Assembly (NCBI GenBank): GCA_902556355.1
Contig: CACDVW010000005.1
Span: forward strand, 1-54,384
DNA length: 54,384 nt
Source of the DNA: an uncultured SAR86 cluster bacterium
GTDB taxonomy: Bacteria; Pseudomonadota; Gammaproteobacteria; Magnimaribacterales; D2472
Direction: 5' to 3'
Part shown: piece by piece, positions 7,326-13,737 of the stretch
Layout: every line of letters starts with the position of its first letter
How positions within the stretch are numbered: the stretch's first letter is position 1
Notes under the pieces: generated by a model
Database searches by the model: none
Seen by the model: only the letters and a program-made list of their open reading frames with translations
Told to the model about the DNA's origin: nothing
Program-made: the position numbers and the translations under genes

Positions 7326-7711
7326 TTTTATTAAAAATTATGATCTTCTTTATATCAGCACTAGCAATGATAGCTGGAATAGTAACGATGGTATCACCTG
7401 ATGTTAATACTATCTTTTTACCTATAGTTGCTGAAGGGGTTCAGGAGTCACATTTTGCAAGATCATATGCTGGATTTGTTGCAGCTGTTGGTTATTTGGC
7501 TATGAGATTTTTATATTCCTCATCAAAAGTTCAAGTCGGTACAGTTGTGTTGTATATTATTTTTGTAATGATGATTTCAAAAATGTTCAGCTTCATTTAC
7601 GATGGTTACACAACTATTGCACTTATATCTTTCTTTATGGGTGTTGTATTTGCAATTGGCCTATATGCCGTGCAAAAAGCAAGAAAAAATCAGCTTGATT
7701 ATAATTTGTAA
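7322..7711 (+). CDS. four-helix membrane protein, DUF4345-like
   Basis: Read from the ATG at 7322, which overlaps the upstream stop (ATGA), this is a 129-residue protein with about four membrane helices. An upstream in-frame start at 7265 would overlap the previous gene heavily and is less likely. The pattern of an N-terminal helix ending in a Pro, then ARSYAGFVAAVGYLAM and a short basic C-terminus, resembles DUF4345 proteins and the gene at 15593. The function is unknown. It is the last of three small membrane genes before tRNA-Leu. Confidence 0.6.
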   Translation: MILLKIMIFFISALAMIAGIVTMVSPDVNTIFLPIVAEGVQESHFARSYAGFVAAVGYLAMRFLYSSSKVQVGTVVLYIIFVMMISKMFSFIYDGYTTIALISFFMGVVFAIGLYAVQKARKNQLDYNL

Positions 7712-7766
7712 ATTTTACAATTAACCTTTCCATAAAATATTAATAATCTATATAATGCTTCAATCC

Positions 7767-7851
7767 GGGGATGTGGTGGAACTGGTAGACACGCTTGGCT
7801 TAGAACCAAGTGCCGCAAGGCGTGGGGGTTCGACTCCCTCCATCCCTACCA
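7767..7851 (+). tRNA. tRNA-Leu (anticodon TAG)
   Basis: An 85-base class II tRNA with acceptor GGGGATG pairing with CATCCCT (a G-U at 1:72), D arm with CTGGTAGAC, anticodon stem CTTGG/CCAAG holding loop CTTAGAA, a variable arm (TGCCGCAAGGCG), T arm GGGGGTTCGACTCCCTC and an encoded CCA. Leu identity fits the long variable arm and discriminator A. A TATAAT box at 7751-7756 suits its own promoter. The arginine control region begins just downstream. Confidence 0.95.
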
Positions 7852-7866
7852 AATTTAGTTGAAAAG

Positions 7867-7894
7867 TTTACAAAATTAAATTTCTATATATACT
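7867..7894 (+). promoter_or_regulatory. sigma-70-type promoter of the arginine operon
   Basis: TTTACA (7867-7872) and TATACT (7889-7894) are separated by 16 bases, a near-consensus promoter. Transcription would start around 7900-7903, right at the ATG of the arginine leader peptide. The transcript would therefore have almost no 5' leader before that codon. Confidence 0.6.
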
Positions 7895-7902
7895 TAGCAC
7901 CG

Positions 7903-7947
7903 ATGAATAACTATTTAACACAAGAAAGACGGGTTTCAGCTTTGTAG
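7903..7947 (+). CDS. arginine leader peptide (14 residues, tandem Arg codons)
   Basis: A short open frame MNNYLTQERRVSAL ending in TAG at 7945-7947, too short for ordinary gene calling. It contains two adjacent arginine codons, AGA CGG (7927-7932). CGG should be among the rarest Arg codons in so AT-rich a genome. The frame lies between a good promoter and a terminator ahead of the arginine biosynthesis operon, and its stop codon lies inside the first of three alternative hairpins. This is the layout of trp/his-type ribosome-mediated attenuation, where stalling at Arg codons reports charged tRNA-Arg. No Shine-Dalgarno is visible, so initiation may be leaderless. Translation is inferred, not shown. 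Confidence 0.65.
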   Translation: MNNYLTQERRVSAL

Positions 7948-7980
7948 CTGGATCTATCCTATTGTGAATTAGACCCAGCT
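7937..7980 (+). promoter_or_regulatory. antiterminator region of the arginine attenuator
   Basis: Segment 1 CAGCT (7937-7941) can pair with segment 2 AGCTG (7946-7950) around a TTGT loop. Segment 2, extended to AGCTGGATC (7946-7954), can instead pair with segment 3 GACCCAGCT (7972-7980) at 8 of 9 positions. That pairing would sequester the 5' arm of the terminator. A ribosome stalled on AGA CGG (7927-7932) would cover segment 1 and leave segment 2 free. A ribosome at the TAG (7945-7947) would cover segment 2. Confidence 0.65.
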
Positions 7981-7998
7981 TATGCTGGGTTTTTTTTA
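7973..7998 (+). terminator. attenuator terminator ahead of argF'
   Basis: Perfect 7-bp stem ACCCAGC (7973-7979) / GCTGGGT (7984-7990) with a TTAT loop, running directly into eight T's. It ends 18 bases before the argF' start. It shares its 5' arm with the alternative antiterminator pairing, so it should form when the leader peptide is translated to its stop (arginine plentiful). Confidence 0.85.
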
Positions 7999-8015
7999 TT
8001 TTAAAAAAAGTAATT

Positions 8016-9014
8016 ATGAAAAATTTTATATCTACAACAGATTGGACGAAACAGGAGCTTCAAGATATCTTGGATTATGCAAAAGATCTTAAGATTAATA
8101 GGTTTAATAATGTATTAAAGAATAAATCTGTAGCTCTTTTATTTTTTAACCCATCAATGAGAACAAGAACTAGTTTTGAATTGGGTGTGCAGGAACTTGG
8201 CGGTTATGCTGTAGTACTTCATCCTGGTAAAGATGCATGGCCCATTGAATTTAAGCTCAACTCTGTTATGGATGGAGATTCTGAAGAGCACATAATAGAA
8301 GTTGCAAAGGTGCTTTCAGATTACTGTGATTTAATTGCGATAAGAGCATTCCCTAAATTCATTAATTTAGAAGAAGATTTATCTGACAATGTAATTAATA
8401 GTTTTGCAAAATATGCTTCTGTACCAGTCATTAATATGGAAACTATTACGCATCCCTGTCAAGAATTAGCACATATTTTAACAATGCAAGAAAACTTGGG
8501 CGACCTTACTGGTAAAGATTATCTTTTAACATGGACATATCACCCAAAACCTTTGAATACAGCAGTAGCAAATTCTTCTCTATTAATTGCAAGCAAATTT
8601 GGCATGAACGTAAAGCTATTATGTCCATCAGAAGAATATATTCTTCATGAGAATTATATTAATGAAGCAGAAAAAAACTGCGCATCAAATAATATGAAAT
8701 TTGAAATCACACATGATATAGATTATGGCTATGGAAATTCAGATATTGTTTATGCAAAAAGCTGGGGTTCTCTTTCTTACTATGGCAATCCTGAAGAAGA
8801 AAAACTTGTTAGAGATAACTTTAAACATTTTATAGTTGATGGAGAAAAAATGTCAAAAACAAATAATGCTCTATTTAGTCATTGTTTGCCATTAAGAAGA
8901 AATATCAAAGCAACAGATGAAGTAATGGATTCAGATTATTGTGTTGCTATTAAAGAGGCAGGTAATAGAATGCATGTTCAAAAATCACTACTTTCAACTT
9001 TACTAAAGGAATAA
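8016..9014 (+). CDS. argF': N-acetylornithine carbamoyltransferase
   Basis: Transfers the carbamoyl group from carbamoyl phosphate to N-acetyl-L-ornithine, giving N-acetylcitrulline; this is the Xanthomonas-type arginine route. The 332-residue protein has the carbamoyl-phosphate motif SMRTRT (47-52), HPCQELAH (146-153), and SHCLPLRRNIKATD with K298 at the position of the carboxylated Lys302 of the X. campestris enzyme. DGDSEEH places Glu90 where that enzyme has Glu92, the residue that specifies acetyl- over succinyl-ornithine (Pro in the Bacteroides enzyme). Ordinary OTCase is unlikely. It is the first gene of the arginine operon, behind the attenuator, and argG starts 5 bases after its stop. 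Confidence 0.93.
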   Translation: MKNFISTTDWTKQELQDILDYAKDLKINRFNNVLKNKSVALLFFNPSMRTRTSFELGVQELGGYAVVLHPGKDAWPIEFKLNSVMDGDSEEHIIEVAKVLSDYCDLIAIRAFPKFINLEEDLSDNVINSFAKYASVPVINMETITHPCQELAHILTMQENLGDLTGKDYLLTWTYHPKPLNTAVANSSLLIASKFGMNVKLLCPSEEYILHENYINEAEKNCASNNMKFEITHDIDYGYGNSDIVYAKSWGSLSYYGNPEEEKLVRDNFKHFIVDGEKMSKTNNALFSHCLPLRRNIKATDEVMDSDYCVAIKEAGNRMHVQKSLLSTLLKE

Positions 9015-9019
9015 TAAAA

Positions 9020-10210
9020 ATGAAAAAAATTGTTTTAGCATTTTCTGGTGGATTAGATACTAGTTTTTGTGTCCCATATCTTATTGATCAAGGTTTTGAA
9101 GTACATACTATCTTTGTTAATAGTGGAGGCACATCCACGAATGAAGAAAAAAAAATATCAAAGAGAGCTTATAAATTAGGAGCAAAAAAACACATAAATG
9201 TGAGCATTGAGACTAGTCTCTGGAAGGAGATAATTAAACCACTGGTTTGGTCTGGATCTTTATATCAGGATAAATATCCAGCACTTTGTTCTGATAGATA
9301 TCTTATTGTTTCAGAAGCAATAAAGCTTTGTAAGAAATTGAATACAAAGTATATTTCTCATGGCTGTACAGGTATGGGTAACGACCAAGTTAGATTTGAT
9401 TTATCTATTCAAGCATTTGGAAATTACAAAACAATTACACCAATCAGAGAGATACAAAATAAAGTTACTGATGTAAGAGGATATGAGCAAGAATATCTTA
9501 AGAATAAAGGATTTAAAGTCTCTACCCTTCATACAAAGTATAGTATTAATGAAAATCTTATGGGTGCTACTGTTTCTGGTTCAGAGATTGATGATTGGAA
9601 GGAGCCATCAAAAGAAAGTTATATACTTTGTAATACGCCAGATAAATATCCATCAAAGCCTAAAAAGCTCGAAATAGAATTCTCTAAAGGCGAGGCTAAA
9701 AAAGTAAATGGAAAATCTATGAAAGGACCAGATTTGCTAAGAATGTTAAATCAAATAGGTGGTAAATATGGAATTGGAAGAGAATTATTCGCTGGAGATA
9801 CTATTATAGGTATTAAGGGTAGATTTTTATTTGAATCACCTGGTATATCTATATTACAAAGGTCGCATAGAGCATTAGAAGAAGCTATTTTTACTGATAA
9901 ACAAAATAATTTTAAGCCACTTATCGGTAAAAGATGGGTAGAGCTTGTTTACGGAGGATTTTATTTTGATCCTTTAACTAAAAATCTTGAAAATTTTCTT
10001 GAGGATATTCAAAAACCAGTAACTGGAAAAGTAACAGTACTCTTGACTGCTGGAAAAGTTGAGGCTGTTGCAGTTGATTCTAAAAAGATTTTGGTAAGTA
10101 AAGACGCTGTATATGCTCAGTCTGCATCATGGGGTGTTGAAGAGTCAGCAGGCTTTATAAAGCTGCTTGGAAAAAGTACATCTACATGGACAGAAATTAA
10201 TAAAAAATAA
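9020..10210 (+). CDS. argG: argininosuccinate synthase
   Basis: Condenses citrulline and aspartate with ATP hydrolysis to argininosuccinate. The 396-residue protein starts with the ATP-pyrophosphatase motif AFSGGLDTS (about 7-15) and keeps YISHGCTGMGNDQVRF in the middle. It starts 5 bases after argF' and ends within a few bases of the NAGS/kinase gene. A run of nine A's at about 9147-9155 lies in frame inside the gene and does not disturb it. Confidence 0.95.
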   Translation: MKKIVLAFSGGLDTSFCVPYLIDQGFEVHTIFVNSGGTSTNEEKKISKRAYKLGAKKHINVSIETSLWKEIIKPLVWSGSLYQDKYPALCSDRYLIVSEAIKLCKKLNTKYISHGCTGMGNDQVRFDLSIQAFGNYKTITPIREIQNKVTDVRGYEQEYLKNKGFKVSTLHTKYSINENLMGATVSGSEIDDWKEPSKESYILCNTPDKYPSKPKKLEIEFSKGEAKKVNGKSMKGPDLLRMLNQIGGKYGIGRELFAGDTIIGIKGRFLFESPGISILQRSHRALEEAIFTDKQNNFKPLIGKRWVELVYGGFYFDPLTKNLENFLEDIQKPVTGKVTVLLTAGKVEAVAVDSKKILVSKDAVYAQSASWGVEESAGFIKLLGKSTSTWTEINKK

Positions 10211-10216
10211 TTGAAA

Positions 10217-11527
10217 ATGAAGAAAAGTTATAAAAAAGATACTATTTTAAAGCTGCTCAGTAGCATGAGTAGTGAAAAAGAAATTAGAAAATATCTAGAT
10301 AGGTTTTCTTCTGATGATTATAGATTTGCTGTAATAAAAGTTGGCGGTGCAGTAATTCAAAACGATCTTGAAAACTTAGTTTCATCATTAGCTTTTTTAA
10401 ATGAAGTTGGCCTCAGACCAATAATTGTCCATGGTGGAGGGCCTAAGTTATCTGAGGAACTAGATAAAAGAAAAATTGAATTTTCTTTTTTAAATGGCCA
10501 AAGAGTAACTACAAAAGACGTATTAGATGTAGCCTATGAAATTTTTAGTGGTGAAAATAAAAAAATTGTATCTGCCCTTAACGATCAACATGTAAATGCA
10601 ATACCAGTTATAGGTGATATATTTAGTTGTAATATTGAGAATAAAGATCTTGGCTATGTTGGTCAGATAAAAGAAACTAATTCTAATAAAATCAAAGATA
10701 TCATTTCCTCAGGAGGTATACCTGTTATCGCACCAATTGGATATACAGAAGAGCATCAATTAGTAAATATTAATGGAGACAAAGCAACTCTAGCTTTGGC
10801 AAAAGAAATAGTTCCAGATAAAGTAATTTTCTTAAGTGAAATAGGTGGTATTTTTGATGGTAGCGATAAGTTAATTTCTAATATCAATATTAAAGATGAC
10901 TATAACAATCTCATGGCCCAAGACTGGCTTCACTCAGGAATGAAATTAAAGTTAGAGCAAATTAAATTATTATTAGATTCTCTTCCAAGTAATAGTTCTG
11001 TATCTATAACAAAACCTCTTCATCTCAATAGAGAACTATTTACTGATGCTGGCTTTGGAACTCTAGTTAAAGCTGGACACCAAATAAATAAATTAAAATC
11101 TTTAAATAATGACCAAATTAATGTTTTAGTTTCAATACTAGAATCCGCTTTTAAGGGCACTTTAAGTGAAAATTATTTTGAAAATGATGATAAAGAATTT
11201 TACATAAGTGAATGCAATAGATCTTCCATAGTTATAACGTCTTACCAAGATATTGCATACATGGATAAGTTTGCTGTTATTAATTCAGCAAGAGGAGAGG
11301 GTCTTGGAAACGCTATGTGGAATAAAATGCTTTCTGAGCATAAGAAAATTTTTTGGAGATCAAGAGCAAGCAATGCAATAAATAATTTTTATAAAGACGT
11401 TTGTGATGGCTTTCAAAAATCTGATGAGTGGAATATTTTTTGGATTGGTATTAATGACTTAGATGAACTCACTGCATGTATTAATTATGCTGTAAATCAA
11501 CCAGCAACAATTTCATATGAAAACTAG
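10217..11527 (+). CDS. argAB: bifunctional N-acetylglutamate synthase / N-acetylglutamate kinase
   Basis: Catalyses the first two steps of arginine synthesis. The amino-acid-kinase domain (about 40-280) shows VIKVGGAV, IIVHGGGPKLSEEL, VNINGDKATLAL and the C-terminal SVSITKPLHLNRELFTDAGFG segment. A GNAT acetyltransferase domain follows (about 285-436) with the acetyl-CoA loop SARGEGLGNAMW near 357. This matches the Xanthomonas and vertebrate-like fused NAGS/K rather than separate ArgA and ArgB. ATG 10217 is chosen; a TTG at 10211, abutting the argG stop, is an alternative. The end overlaps argC by 11 bases. Confidence 0.9.
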   Translation: MKKSYKKDTILKLLSSMSSEKEIRKYLDRFSSDDYRFAVIKVGGAVIQNDLENLVSSLAFLNEVGLRPIIVHGGGPKLSEELDKRKIEFSFLNGQRVTTKDVLDVAYEIFSGENKKIVSALNDQHVNAIPVIGDIFSCNIENKDLGYVGQIKETNSNKIKDIISSGGIPVIAPIGYTEEHQLVNINGDKATLALAKEIVPDKVIFLSEIGGIFDGSDKLISNINIKDDYNNLMAQDWLHSGMKLKLEQIKLLLDSLPSNSSVSITKPLHLNRELFTDAGFGTLVKAGHQINKLKSLNNDQINVLVSILESAFKGTLSENYFENDDKEFYISECNRSSIVITSYQDIAYMDKFAVINSARGEGLGNAMWNKMLSEHKKIFWRSRASNAINNFYKDVCDGFQKSDEWNIFWIGINDLDELTACINYAVNQPATISYEN

Positions 11528-12461
11528 TTTTAACATTTCTATTCTAGGTGGTAGGGGCTATGTCGGCCAAGAGATAATTAAGATTATAAATAATCATCCT
11601 AATTTTTTTATATCAGATATTTACTCCAAAACTTCACATGGGAAGTTGGTTGATGATTACACTAAGTCAAAGAGTCTCACCTATAAACTATTAGAAAGGC
11701 CGGATAAATTAGATTTTACTGATATTGATATTGTAATTATGGCTTTATCAAATAATGAATCTTCAAATTATATTAAAAGCATTGAAGAACATGATTCTAA
11801 TATTATTATTATTGATATTAGTGCTGATTATAGATTCAACGATGGATGGGCATACAAGTTGCCAGAGATAGCTGCTCAAACTAAAGATAAAAGGATTAGC
11901 AATCCAGGCTGTTATGCATCTGCAATACAATTTTCTTTATTTCCAATAAAGCATCTGATAAACGGGAAAGTAAGTTGTATGGGTATTTCTGGCTATAGTG
12001 GCGCAGGGGCAACTCCAAATGAAAAAAATGATCCAAATAATCTTGAAGGAAATATTATTCCGTATTCATTAACTAGCCATATTCATGAAAAGGAAGTAAT
12101 GATGCACTGTTATGAAAAATTATCTTTTAGCCCTCATGTAGCTAATTTTTTTAGAGGCATTCTTATAACGTCTCATATTCAGCTAACTAAAAAATCATCA
12201 AGTTCTGAAATATATAATCTTTATAAGAGCTTTTATAAAAATAAGAAACTTATACGTGTGATAAAAGAAATACCAATGATTAATAAGGTATCTAATAGTC
12301 ATTATGTATATATTGGTGGCTTTGAAGTAGATGAAAGTGGATGTGGCTTAACAGTATGCTGCACTTTAGATAATTTATTAAAAGGTGCTGCTACACAAGT
12401 AATTCAAAACTTAAATCATGCTTGCAGTCTTGATGAATTAACAGGAATTAATTATGAATAA
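11517..12461 (+). CDS. argC: N-acetyl-gamma-glutamyl-phosphate reductase
   Basis: NADPH-dependent reduction of N-acetylglutamyl phosphate to the semialdehyde, the third step of the pathway. The 314-residue protein begins with the nucleotide-binding loop ILGGRGYVGQEI (about 9-20) and carries the catalytic cysteine in NPGCYAS (about C131) and the GYSGAGATPNEKN region. It is shorter than the roughly 340 residues common elsewhere, like the Xanthomonas form. It overlaps the upstream gene by 11 bases and argH by 8, so the run is translationally coupled. Confidence 0.94.
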   Translation: MKTSFNISILGGRGYVGQEIIKIINNHPNFFISDIYSKTSHGKLVDDYTKSKSLTYKLLERPDKLDFTDIDIVIMALSNNESSNYIKSIEEHDSNIIIIDISADYRFNDGWAYKLPEIAAQTKDKRISNPGCYASAIQFSLFPIKHLINGKVSCMGISGYSGAGATPNEKNDPNNLEGNIIPYSLTSHIHEKEVMMHCYEKLSFSPHVANFFRGILITSHIQLTKKSSSSEIYNLYKSFYKNKKLIRVIKEIPMINKVSNSHYVYIGGFEVDESGCGLTVCCTLDNLLKGAATQVIQNLNHACSLDELTGINYE

Positions 12462-13737
12462 AAAAATATGGAACACTTCAGGTGTAAAAGTATCAGACGA
12501 AATATCTTCATTTTTAGCTGGTGAAGACATAGAGCTTGATAATTCTATTTTTATATATGATATCGATGCAACTATCGCTCATATTAAAGGACTACAATCA
12601 ATCAATATTTTGAAAAAAAATGAATTTAATAAACTCAATAAATCATTAAAGGAGCTAAAAAAGAAATTCTTAGAGGGTTCTTTTAAACTGACTAAAAAGT
12701 ATGAAGATTGCCATTCTGCTATTGAGTTTTATCTGACTAAAGAATTAGGAGATCTTGGAAAGAAAGTTCATACAGGTAGAAGTAGAAATGACCAAGTTCT
12801 AGTAGCTATGAGATTATTTGCAAAAAATAATCTACAGGATTTTAAAAAACTAAATCAGTCTGTCGCTAAAACATTTTTACAAATGGCAAATAAGTATGAA
12901 CATATTCCTATGCCTGGATACACTCATCTTCAAAGAGCAATGCCTTCTTCATGGGGCTTATGGTTTAGTTCTTATGCCGAGTCATTTATCGATAATATAG
13001 ATTTAATTAATAGTACCATTGACTGGATAGACTCAAATCCTCTTGGCAGCGCTGCTGGCTATGGGGTTGCTCTTCCTTTAGATAGAAAAACTACAACAAA
13101 GGAACTAGGATTCAAAAGAGTGCAATTAAATAGCCTATATACTCAAAATAGTAGAGGTAAGTATGAGATGCAAGTTATCAATACTTTAAAACAATCTATG
13201 CTTGATTTAAGAAAGTTTGCATGGGATATGAGCCTTTTTATGTCGCAAGAGTTTAATTTATTAACTATTGATAAAGCATATTTAACTGGTTCTTCGATTA
13301 TGCCAAATAAACACAATCCTGATGTCATTGAGATTCTAAGAGCGAATTACTCAATTTTAGCTGGCCAAGCATCAGAGTTAGAAAATATCATATCTCTTCC
13401 AAGTGGCTATCATAGAGATCTTCAATTAACAAAGAGAAGTTTAGTCTCTAGTTTTGATGTAAGCTTAAAATCTTTAAGCATCCTTCCAAAACTTATTAAG
13501 TCTATCAAAGTAAATAAAAAGAATTCATTAGAATATATTGACGATGAGATGAAAATGACAGATAGAGTATATGCTTTAGTAAAAGAAGGAACACCTTTTA
13601 GAGATGCTTACAATAAAGTAAAAAATTCTAACAATGTGTCACAACTTTCAGAGACAACTAGATCTAATTATTCGGAAGGATCTCCAGGAAACTTGAAGTT
13701 AAATGTCCTTGAAAAAAGGTTATCTAAACAAAGATAA
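12454..13737 (+). CDS. argH: argininosuccinate lyase
   Basis: Splits argininosuccinate into arginine and fumarate, the last pathway step. The 427-residue protein has SGRSRNDQ-like TGRSRNDQV near 108, TYTQ-equivalent GYTHLQRAMPSSWG near 154, and the fumarase/aspartase signature GSSIMPNKHNPD at about 280. It is a little shorter than the usual 450-470 residues, and no acetyltransferase domain is fused. It is the last gene of the arginine operon; the MFS gene starts 30 bases later and might be co-transcribed. Confidence 0.95.
   Translation: MNKKIWNTSGVKVSDEISSFLAGEDIELDNSIFIYDIDATIAHIKGLQSINILKKNEFNKLNKSLKELKKKFLEGSFKLTKKYEDCHSAIEFYLTKELGDLGKKVHTGRSRNDQVLVAMRLFAKNNLQDFKKLNQSVAKTFLQMANKYEHIPMPGYTHLQRAMPSSWGLWFSSYAESFIDNIDLINSTIDWIDSNPLGSAAGYGVALPLDRKTTTKELGFKRVQLNSLYTQNSRGKYEMQVINTLKQSMLDLRKFAWDMSLFMSQEFNLLTIDKAYLTGSSIMPNKHNPDVIEILRANYSILAGQASELENIISLPSGYHRDLQLTKRSLVSSFDVSLKSLSILPKLIKSIKVNKKNSLEYIDDEMKMTDRVYALVKEGTPFRDAYNKVKNSNNVSQLSETTRSNYSEGSPGNLKLNVLEKRLSKQR

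Follow-up and report, generated by a model that had tools for sequence, protein, structure and literature searches.

A probable arginine-sensing leader-peptide attenuator ahead of argF'GBCH in SAR86, Kangiella and Xanthomonadaceae-type bacteria

In a stretch of 54,384 nucleotides (nt) from an uncultured SAR86 cluster bacterium (contig CACDVW010000005.1, in the following called the window), the arginine biosynthesis operon argF'GBCH is preceded by a short open reading frame (ORF) with two consecutive arginine codons and by segments that can form three alternative RNA hairpins, the last of them an intrinsic terminator. This arrangement very probably represents a ribosome-mediated transcription attenuator, by which the arginine supply would be sensed via charged tRNA-Arg. 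Arginine synthesis is the textbook example of control by the ArgR repressor, and attenuation by leader peptides is known from the trp, his, leu and ilv operons.

Results

All elements of the leader are located on the + strand between positions 7867 and 8015, directly before the ATG of argF' (8016). The promoter, recognised by reading of the sequence and by a promoter scan, comprises a -35 box TTTACA (7867-7872) and a -10 box TATACT (7889-7894) with a 16-nt spacer. It is followed by the leader ORF MNNYLTQERRVSAL (7903..7947), which was assigned by reading and by comparison with 28 SAR86 loci, consists of 14 codons and extends from the ATG at 7903, 113 bases 5' of the argF' ATG, to the TAG at 7945-7947. 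The putative sensor codons AGA CGG are codons 9 and 10 (7927..7932). Segment 2 (AGCTGGATC, 7946..7954) overlaps the stop codon and can pair with segment 1 in a protector hairpin (7919..7966), the inner stem of which is CAGCT/AGCTG (7937-7941/7946-7950), or with segment 3 (GACCCAGCT, 7972..7980) in an antiterminator matching at 8/9 positions. Segment 3 can likewise pair with segment 4 in the stem ACCCAGC/GCTGGGT (7973-7979/7984-7990), and segment 4 together with eight T's (7990-7997) comprises the intrinsic terminator (7984..7997) found by a terminator scan. An earlier note on this DNA had placed promoter, frame, arginine codons, the three pairings and the T-run at these positions, which were correct on direct reading, and the observed attenuator architecture in the window is confirmed. 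Two features had been overlooked. Folding revealed an outer stem CACAA/UUGUG (7919-7923/7962-7966) which lengthens the 1:2 hairpin, and the leader ATG lies only 8 nt 3' of the -10 box, which is too little space for a Shine-Dalgarno site.

The scans yielded one terminator site compared to 0.1 expected, and three promoter sites compared to 1.8 expected, so that the promoter by itself is not beyond chance. The leader folds with -30.6 kcal/mol compared to a mean of -16.8 kcal/mol for shuffled sequences (z of -4.7), surpassing 200/200 shuffles. For the antiterminator, the RNA from the edge of the ribosome to the end of segment 3 was folded with the A-site on CGG and a ribosome footprint of 15 nt, counted from the first base of this codon. 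The resulting -10.3 kcal/mol was equalled by 0/200 shuffles, and placing the ribosome at the stop codon left only the terminator.

The SAR86-family sample comprised 107 genomes, of which 89 showed any argF' match and 47 a long one; in the remaining genomes argF' matches were weak (E value above 1e-10) or missing. The upstream region was readable in 46 of the 47, G029 beginning at a contig end. The attenuator was found at 28 of these 46 loci, namely at 28/28 outside genus g5 and at 0/18 within it. Throughout the 28 loci, which represent 23 distinct leader DNA sequences, the frame comprises 14 codons (in L013 from an inner ATG) with CGG as codon 10, while codons 2-8 are variable, and the frame is closed by TAG in 27 loci and by TAA in one. 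Tandem arginine codons occur in 26/28 loci and a lone CGG in two (L028, L076). In the five loci of genus g7, the second arginine codon is located 3' of CGG or, in two, is absent, with CGG still at codon 10. TTTACA and the 16-nt spacer are kept in 26/28 loci, and the ATG follows the -10 box by 7-9 nt in 27/28, again counting L013 from its inner ATG, while L060 is ambiguous. As a side observation, genera g3, g6 and g10 showed no long argF' match and g9 showed one in three genomes only; arginine synthesis in these four genera may have been lost or may be served by another enzyme.

Comparable leaders were found in two further groups. In Kangiella, an R-R-R leader precedes argF' in 7/7 readable loci (an eighth, L050, ends at the contig edge) and the leaders share with those of SAR86 the core GCTGGG/CCCAGC/GCTGGG. 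In Xanthomonadaceae-type bacteria, a leader containing MTSRARR precedes argF' in 34/34 loci (L078-L111). A terminator was located in 28/28 SAR86, 7/7 Kangiella and 34/34 Xanthomonadaceae-type loci, and in the minimum-energy fold segment 2 pairs with upstream sequence in 25/28, 7/7 and 31/34, respectively. The antiterminator surpassed 190 or more of 200 shuffles in 25/28 SAR86, 7/7 Kangiella and 28/34 Xanthomonadaceae-type loci (60/69). A frame with arginine codons, a terminator and a segment 2 able to pair with segment 3 are present in the non-g5 SAR86 loci (28/28), in Kangiella (7/7) and in the Xanthomonadaceae-type loci (34/34). The conservation in relatives that the earlier note had called for accordingly holds in 69 loci, but it is absent from the 18 readable g5 loci and from three SAR92-type loci.

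The geometry of these leaders is informative with respect to the position at which a ribosome would act. With segment 2 taken as the best complement anywhere from 12 nt past the arginine codon to segment 3, the segment 2 core starts 17-23 nt past the last conserved arginine codon, counted from the first base of that codon, in 69/69 loci, which are related within each clade and therefore do not count as independent. The offset of the stop codon to segment 2 ranges from -27 to +8, i.e. from a stop 27 nt after it to one 8 nt before it. The spacing is therefore held from the arginine codon and not from the stop, as expected if stalling at arginine decides.

Compensatory changes, which had also been suggested as a check, were found across clades, but none within SAR86. 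Segments 2, 3 and 4 change together from U/A/U to C/G/C in six Xanthomonadaceae-type loci, and four more show a G-U intermediate. Since five of the triple-change loci form one clade in the argF' tree and L103 stands elsewhere, at least two such events are likely. In the same group, A--MTSRARR is fixed in 34/34 loci with third positions varying at T, R, A and R; the pattern used to locate these frames required RARR, failed at no locus and did not include A, M, T and S. A fixed peptide with synonymous third-position drift is a coding signature and, together with the conserved frame, supports the predicted translation of the leader. A search of 369 Gammaproteobacteria for the exact three-segment pattern gave three matches, all in one family and directly before argF'. 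Copies before other operons were thus not found with this pattern, which misses variants including that of the window (0 matches in its own genome, G000).

The Xanthomonadaceae-type leader is already represented in Rfam. The family RF02242 (Xoo5), a 124-nt "sRNA" (small RNA), covers the leader in 24/34 loci (including L079, L090 and L093), matches 0/7 Kangiella leaders and was not among the matches of window positions 7700-8100 at E values up to 5. According to the excerpts available of the original report (PMC3039613), Xoo5 of X. oryzae was detected by Northern blot and its 5' end was determined by rapid amplification of cDNA ends (RACE), with a size of 124 nt; of two forms, ~130 and ~100 nt, both were present in early growth, and later the short form alone was seen. 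That report described it as a small RNA and does not mention "arginine" anywhere in its main text (PMC3039613). If position 1 of the Xoo5 model is taken as the RACE-mapped 5' end, 20/23 full-length matches have an in-frame ATG 2 nt downstream of it. By this alignment, a relative produces a transcript that begins at the leader start. Since the SAR86 ATG follows the -10 box by 7-9 nt, its transcript should likewise start at or next to the ATG, and the SAR86 leader ORF is expected to be leaderless. Judged from the related loci, on which the adjacency to argF' rests rather than on X. oryzae PXO99 itself, Xoo5 would be better described as the leader of the argF' operon than as a small RNA.

CGG is nearly unused in the coding sequences around these leaders. 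It accounts for 0/431 arginine codons in 38 ORFs of the window, for 1/895 in ORFs from the SAR86 loci with an attenuator and from L163, and for 4/687 in the flanks of G053, the latter two samples overlapping in L163. The 34 tRNA matches of G053, a SAR86 genome of 95% completeness, include the arginine anticodons TCT, CCT, TCG and ACG and no CCG. Therefore, the TCG tRNA probably decodes CGG in addition to the rare CGA. The near absence of this codon, together with a minor tRNA as its probable reader, may set the sensitivity of the attenuator in SAR86. Rare sensor codons raise the sensitivity of the leu leader of E. coli. In the speF leader, rare or frequent arginine codons performed alike, as given in the excerpts of PMC6386406. 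A reason at the nucleotide level instead of codon rarity may also account for the kept CGG.

ArgR (PF02863) was matched in 0/107 SAR86-family genomes, many of them incomplete, and in 0/34 other genomes (8 Kangiella, 23 of 34 Xanthomonadaceae-type and 3 SAR92). As a control, the same profile was found in 8/14 known genomes including E. coli. The absence from all 107 genomes is telling despite their incompleteness. In the argF' tree (89 rows, with L126, L127 and L128 left out, and midpoint-rooted for drawing only), Kangiella and Xanthomonadaceae-type sequences lie on one side and SAR86 and SAR92 on the other. One attenuator-free branch, comprising g5 and SAR92, is nested among the attenuator-bearing rows. 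The simplest reading of this topology would be that the attenuator is ancestral, arose once in ancient times and was lost once, in the lineage leading to g5 and SAR92.

The attenuator-free loci are not uniform. Three g5 loci (L057, L061, L068) possess a terminator 51-53 nt before argF' and lack an arginine-rich frame, and the SAR92-type loci L069, L070 and L074 show neither a terminator before argF' nor an ArgR match. In 14/18 g5 loci (L022, L024, L026, L027, L029, L030, L055, L059, L062, L063, L064, L065, L066, L124) a frame ending in R-x-R-S-[I/L/V] precedes argF', with the first base of its stop 35-41 nt before the gene; in L025 the frame ends in KLRSL instead. By eye, a small hairpin without a T-run follows the R-x-R-S-[I/L/V] frame. 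Seven of these frames are panD and seven are a separate short ORF. PanD adjoining argF' (L167-L173) ends in QR[IL]RS, while PanD elsewhere in SAR86 (L174-L196) ends in Q[KR]L[HKYR]S. R-x-R was thus present in 7/7 panD genes next to argF' and in 0/23 others read, with 8 further panD matches outside the count, a comparison that is a lead only since the seven genes share ancestry. The R-x-R frame of g5 may be a replacement arginine sensor which acts on translation.

Downstream of the leader, family-profile matches bear out the operon of five arg genes that had been proposed for the window. All are encoded on the + strand: argF' (N-acetylornithine carbamoyltransferase, 8016..9014) matches NF003384 with 519 bits at a cut-off of 288, argG (argininosuccinate synthase, 9020..10210) lies above the cut-off of TIGR00032 and slightly under that of NF003385, and argB (acetylglutamate kinase, 10211..11527) lies above that of NF003387. 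The latter is of the PRK04531 type with a C-terminal extension, which we take to be an acetyltransferase domain. Matches above the cut-off were also obtained for argC (N-acetyl-gamma-glutamyl-phosphate reductase, 11517..12461, TIGR01850) and argH (argininosuccinate lyase, 12454..13737, TIGR00838). Upstream, a tRNA-Leu gene (anticodon TAG) occupies 7767-7851, and 51 bases separate its end from the leader ATG.

Discussion

The comparison supports the proposal of the earlier note that a ribosome starved for charged tRNA-Arg would stall on AGA CGG and thereby allow the antiterminator to form. From the arrangement of the segments we infer translation of the leader, stalling and a response to arginine as follows. 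Transcription would start at or within ~2 bases of the leader ATG, and the ribosome would load directly on the 5' end. With ample arginyl-tRNA it would pass AGA CGG, reach the stop inside segment 2 and cover this segment, so that 3:4 would form and terminate transcription. With scarce arginyl-tRNA it would stall on AGA or CGG, and the segment 2 core, 17 nt past the first base of CGG, would sit just outside the ribosome. The free segment 2 would then pair with segment 3 ahead of the synthesis of segment 4, and the polymerase would enter argF'GBCH. If no ribosome loads, 1:2 would form and 3:4 would again terminate.

A number of observations weigh against this interpretation. When segment 4 is included and the ribosome is placed on CGG, the leader RNA of the window has the terminator as its minimum-energy fold, and the terminator exceeds the antiterminator in stability in 23/28 SAR86, 3/7 Kangiella and 16/34 Xanthomonadaceae-type loci. 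Since the terminator is often favoured at equilibrium, the switch must be kinetic and depend on the order of synthesis, which likewise decides in other attenuators. The antiterminator stays under the shuffle threshold in 3/28 SAR86 loci (L008, L023, L058) and in 6/34 Xanthomonadaceae-type loci. The latter are exactly the six triple-change loci, in five of which the 2:3 core pairs at 5/6 positions, and the energy test is thus weakened exactly where the covariation is best. The 1:2 hairpin passed the same threshold (190 or more of 200 shuffles) in 22/28 SAR86 loci, in 3/7 Kangiella loci and in only 3/34 Xanthomonadaceae-type loci. RNAalifold applied to the SAR86 alignment returned the terminator and a 3-bp pairing only, with zero covariation, because segments 2-4 are nearly invariant there. 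In L012, a one-base change in segment 2 (GCAGG for GCTGG) breaks one 2:3 pair, although its fold with segment 3 was still strong (-13.0 kcal/mol). By eye, the Kangiella leaders appear to carry a 5' untranslated region and not to be leaderless. The 3' end of the Xoo5 clone precedes the terminator hairpin and hence does not demonstrate termination, and according to the abstract of PMC3039613 deletion mutants of seven of its eight small RNAs, possibly including Xoo5, showed no obvious phenotype. Finally, 18/18 readable g5 loci and the SAR92-type loci manage without the attenuator.

Different sensing principles could also have arisen in the different clades. Starting from one ancestral attenuator, three sensor types may have evolved: CGG with a scarce tRNA in SAR86, MTSRARR as an arrest peptide in Xanthomonadaceae, and the terminator-free form of g5. 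We assign this scenario a low, though not a negligible, probability. If true, MTSRARR would be the bacterial equivalent of the arginine attenuator peptide of fungi, and the sensor of g5 would be the frame ending in R-x-R-S-[I/L/V] just upstream of argF', which is panD in some of the genomes.

Arrest by the nascent peptide, for which this fungal peptide is a precedent, could alternatively operate. In this case free arginine or the arginine-rich chain would arrest the ribosome, and the position of arrest instead of tRNA charging would set the switch. The identical M-T-S-R-A-R-R in 34/34 Xanthomonadaceae-type loci with varying third positions, together with the A fixed three residues before M, indicates selection on the peptide. 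However, the SAR86 peptide is not conserved beyond its arginine codons and its length, and the near-constant distance in all three groups is the one from the arginine codon to segment 2. Nascent-peptide arrest is therefore improbable compared with sensing of charged tRNA-Arg, although a sensor of this kind may act in Xanthomonadaceae.

A metabolite riboswitch or a leader bound by a protein could control termination with the ORF being incidental. The nearly invariant nucleotides of CGG and of segments 2-4 in SAR86 would agree with such a mechanism, whereas the exact frame length in SAR86, the synonymous drift around a fixed peptide in the Xanthomonadaceae-type loci and the spacing held from the arginine codon are at odds with it, which renders it highly improbable. 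Riboswitches and T-boxes were rejected, as none was among the Rfam matches of the window up to an E value of 5. Of these matches only tRNA reached the gathering threshold, and Leu_leader remained below it (21 bits, gathering 50).

That the hairpin only terminates the tRNA-Leu gene at 7767-7851, with a frame that arose by chance, has practically no probability left and was rejected: the 400 bases upstream of argF' include a tRNA-Leu in 12/28 SAR86 loci, but in 16/28 attenuator loci they include no tRNA at all, a conserved promoter separates tRNA and frame, and frame, CGG and pairings are kept in 28 loci.

Attenuation by charged tRNA-Arg would place the leader in the class of the enterobacterial trp, his, leu and ilv leaders, which likewise comprise a short ORF with a cluster of cognate codons, 1:2, 2:3 and 3:4 pairings that exclude one another, and a terminator upstream of the operon's genes. 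In contrast to these, the SAR86 leader has arginine codons and no room for a Shine-Dalgarno site, and the same genomes show no ArgR match.

Further systems can be compared as far as the excerpts of the respective papers reach. The trpL leader of Sinorhizobium meliloti also encodes 14 residues on a transcript starting at the ATG, but it concerns tryptophan in an alphaproteobacterium (PMC7298713). In Salmonella, two consecutive arginine codons (AGG CGG) of speF orf34 sense arginine by ribosome pausing; there, however, putrescine synthesis is controlled via Rho, sequestration of the ribosome-binding site, mRNA structure and decay by RNase G, and the ORF comprises 34 codons with a conserved peptide domain (PMC6386406). 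For Pseudomonas carA, a gene shared with arginine synthesis, a leader peptide and attenuation were suggested as well, but the attenuation was ascribed to pyrimidines and arginine was said to act on transcription (PMC4997734). The cysS uORF motif of Rhodobacterales resembles the SAR86 leader in its tandem cognate codons, its terminator and its discovery by comparison, and differs in concerning cysteine and a tRNA synthetase gene (PMC8632094). Xoo5 is a homologous leader, but was published as a small RNA (PMC3039613). In the main text of Naville and Gautheret 2010, a term search found neither arginine nor argF (PMC2965389).

Among the open-licence papers listed by literature searches, we recognised no description of an attenuator of arginine biosynthesis. 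The proposed mechanism belongs to the known trp/his class of leader peptides, while the amino acid, the spread of the attenuator and the identity of Xoo5 appear to be new.

Conclusion

Lineages without detectable ArgR, including an abundant uncultured clade of the ocean, carry a probable arginine attenuator before five arginine genes, which suggests how arginine synthesis may be controlled in them. The orphan Rfam small RNA Xoo5 would thereby gain a function, and a gammaproteobacterial case would be added to the apparently leaderless attenuator ORFs. Moreover, the leaders with CGG, RRR and RARR provide a natural series for asking which distance and which set of codons an attenuator needs.
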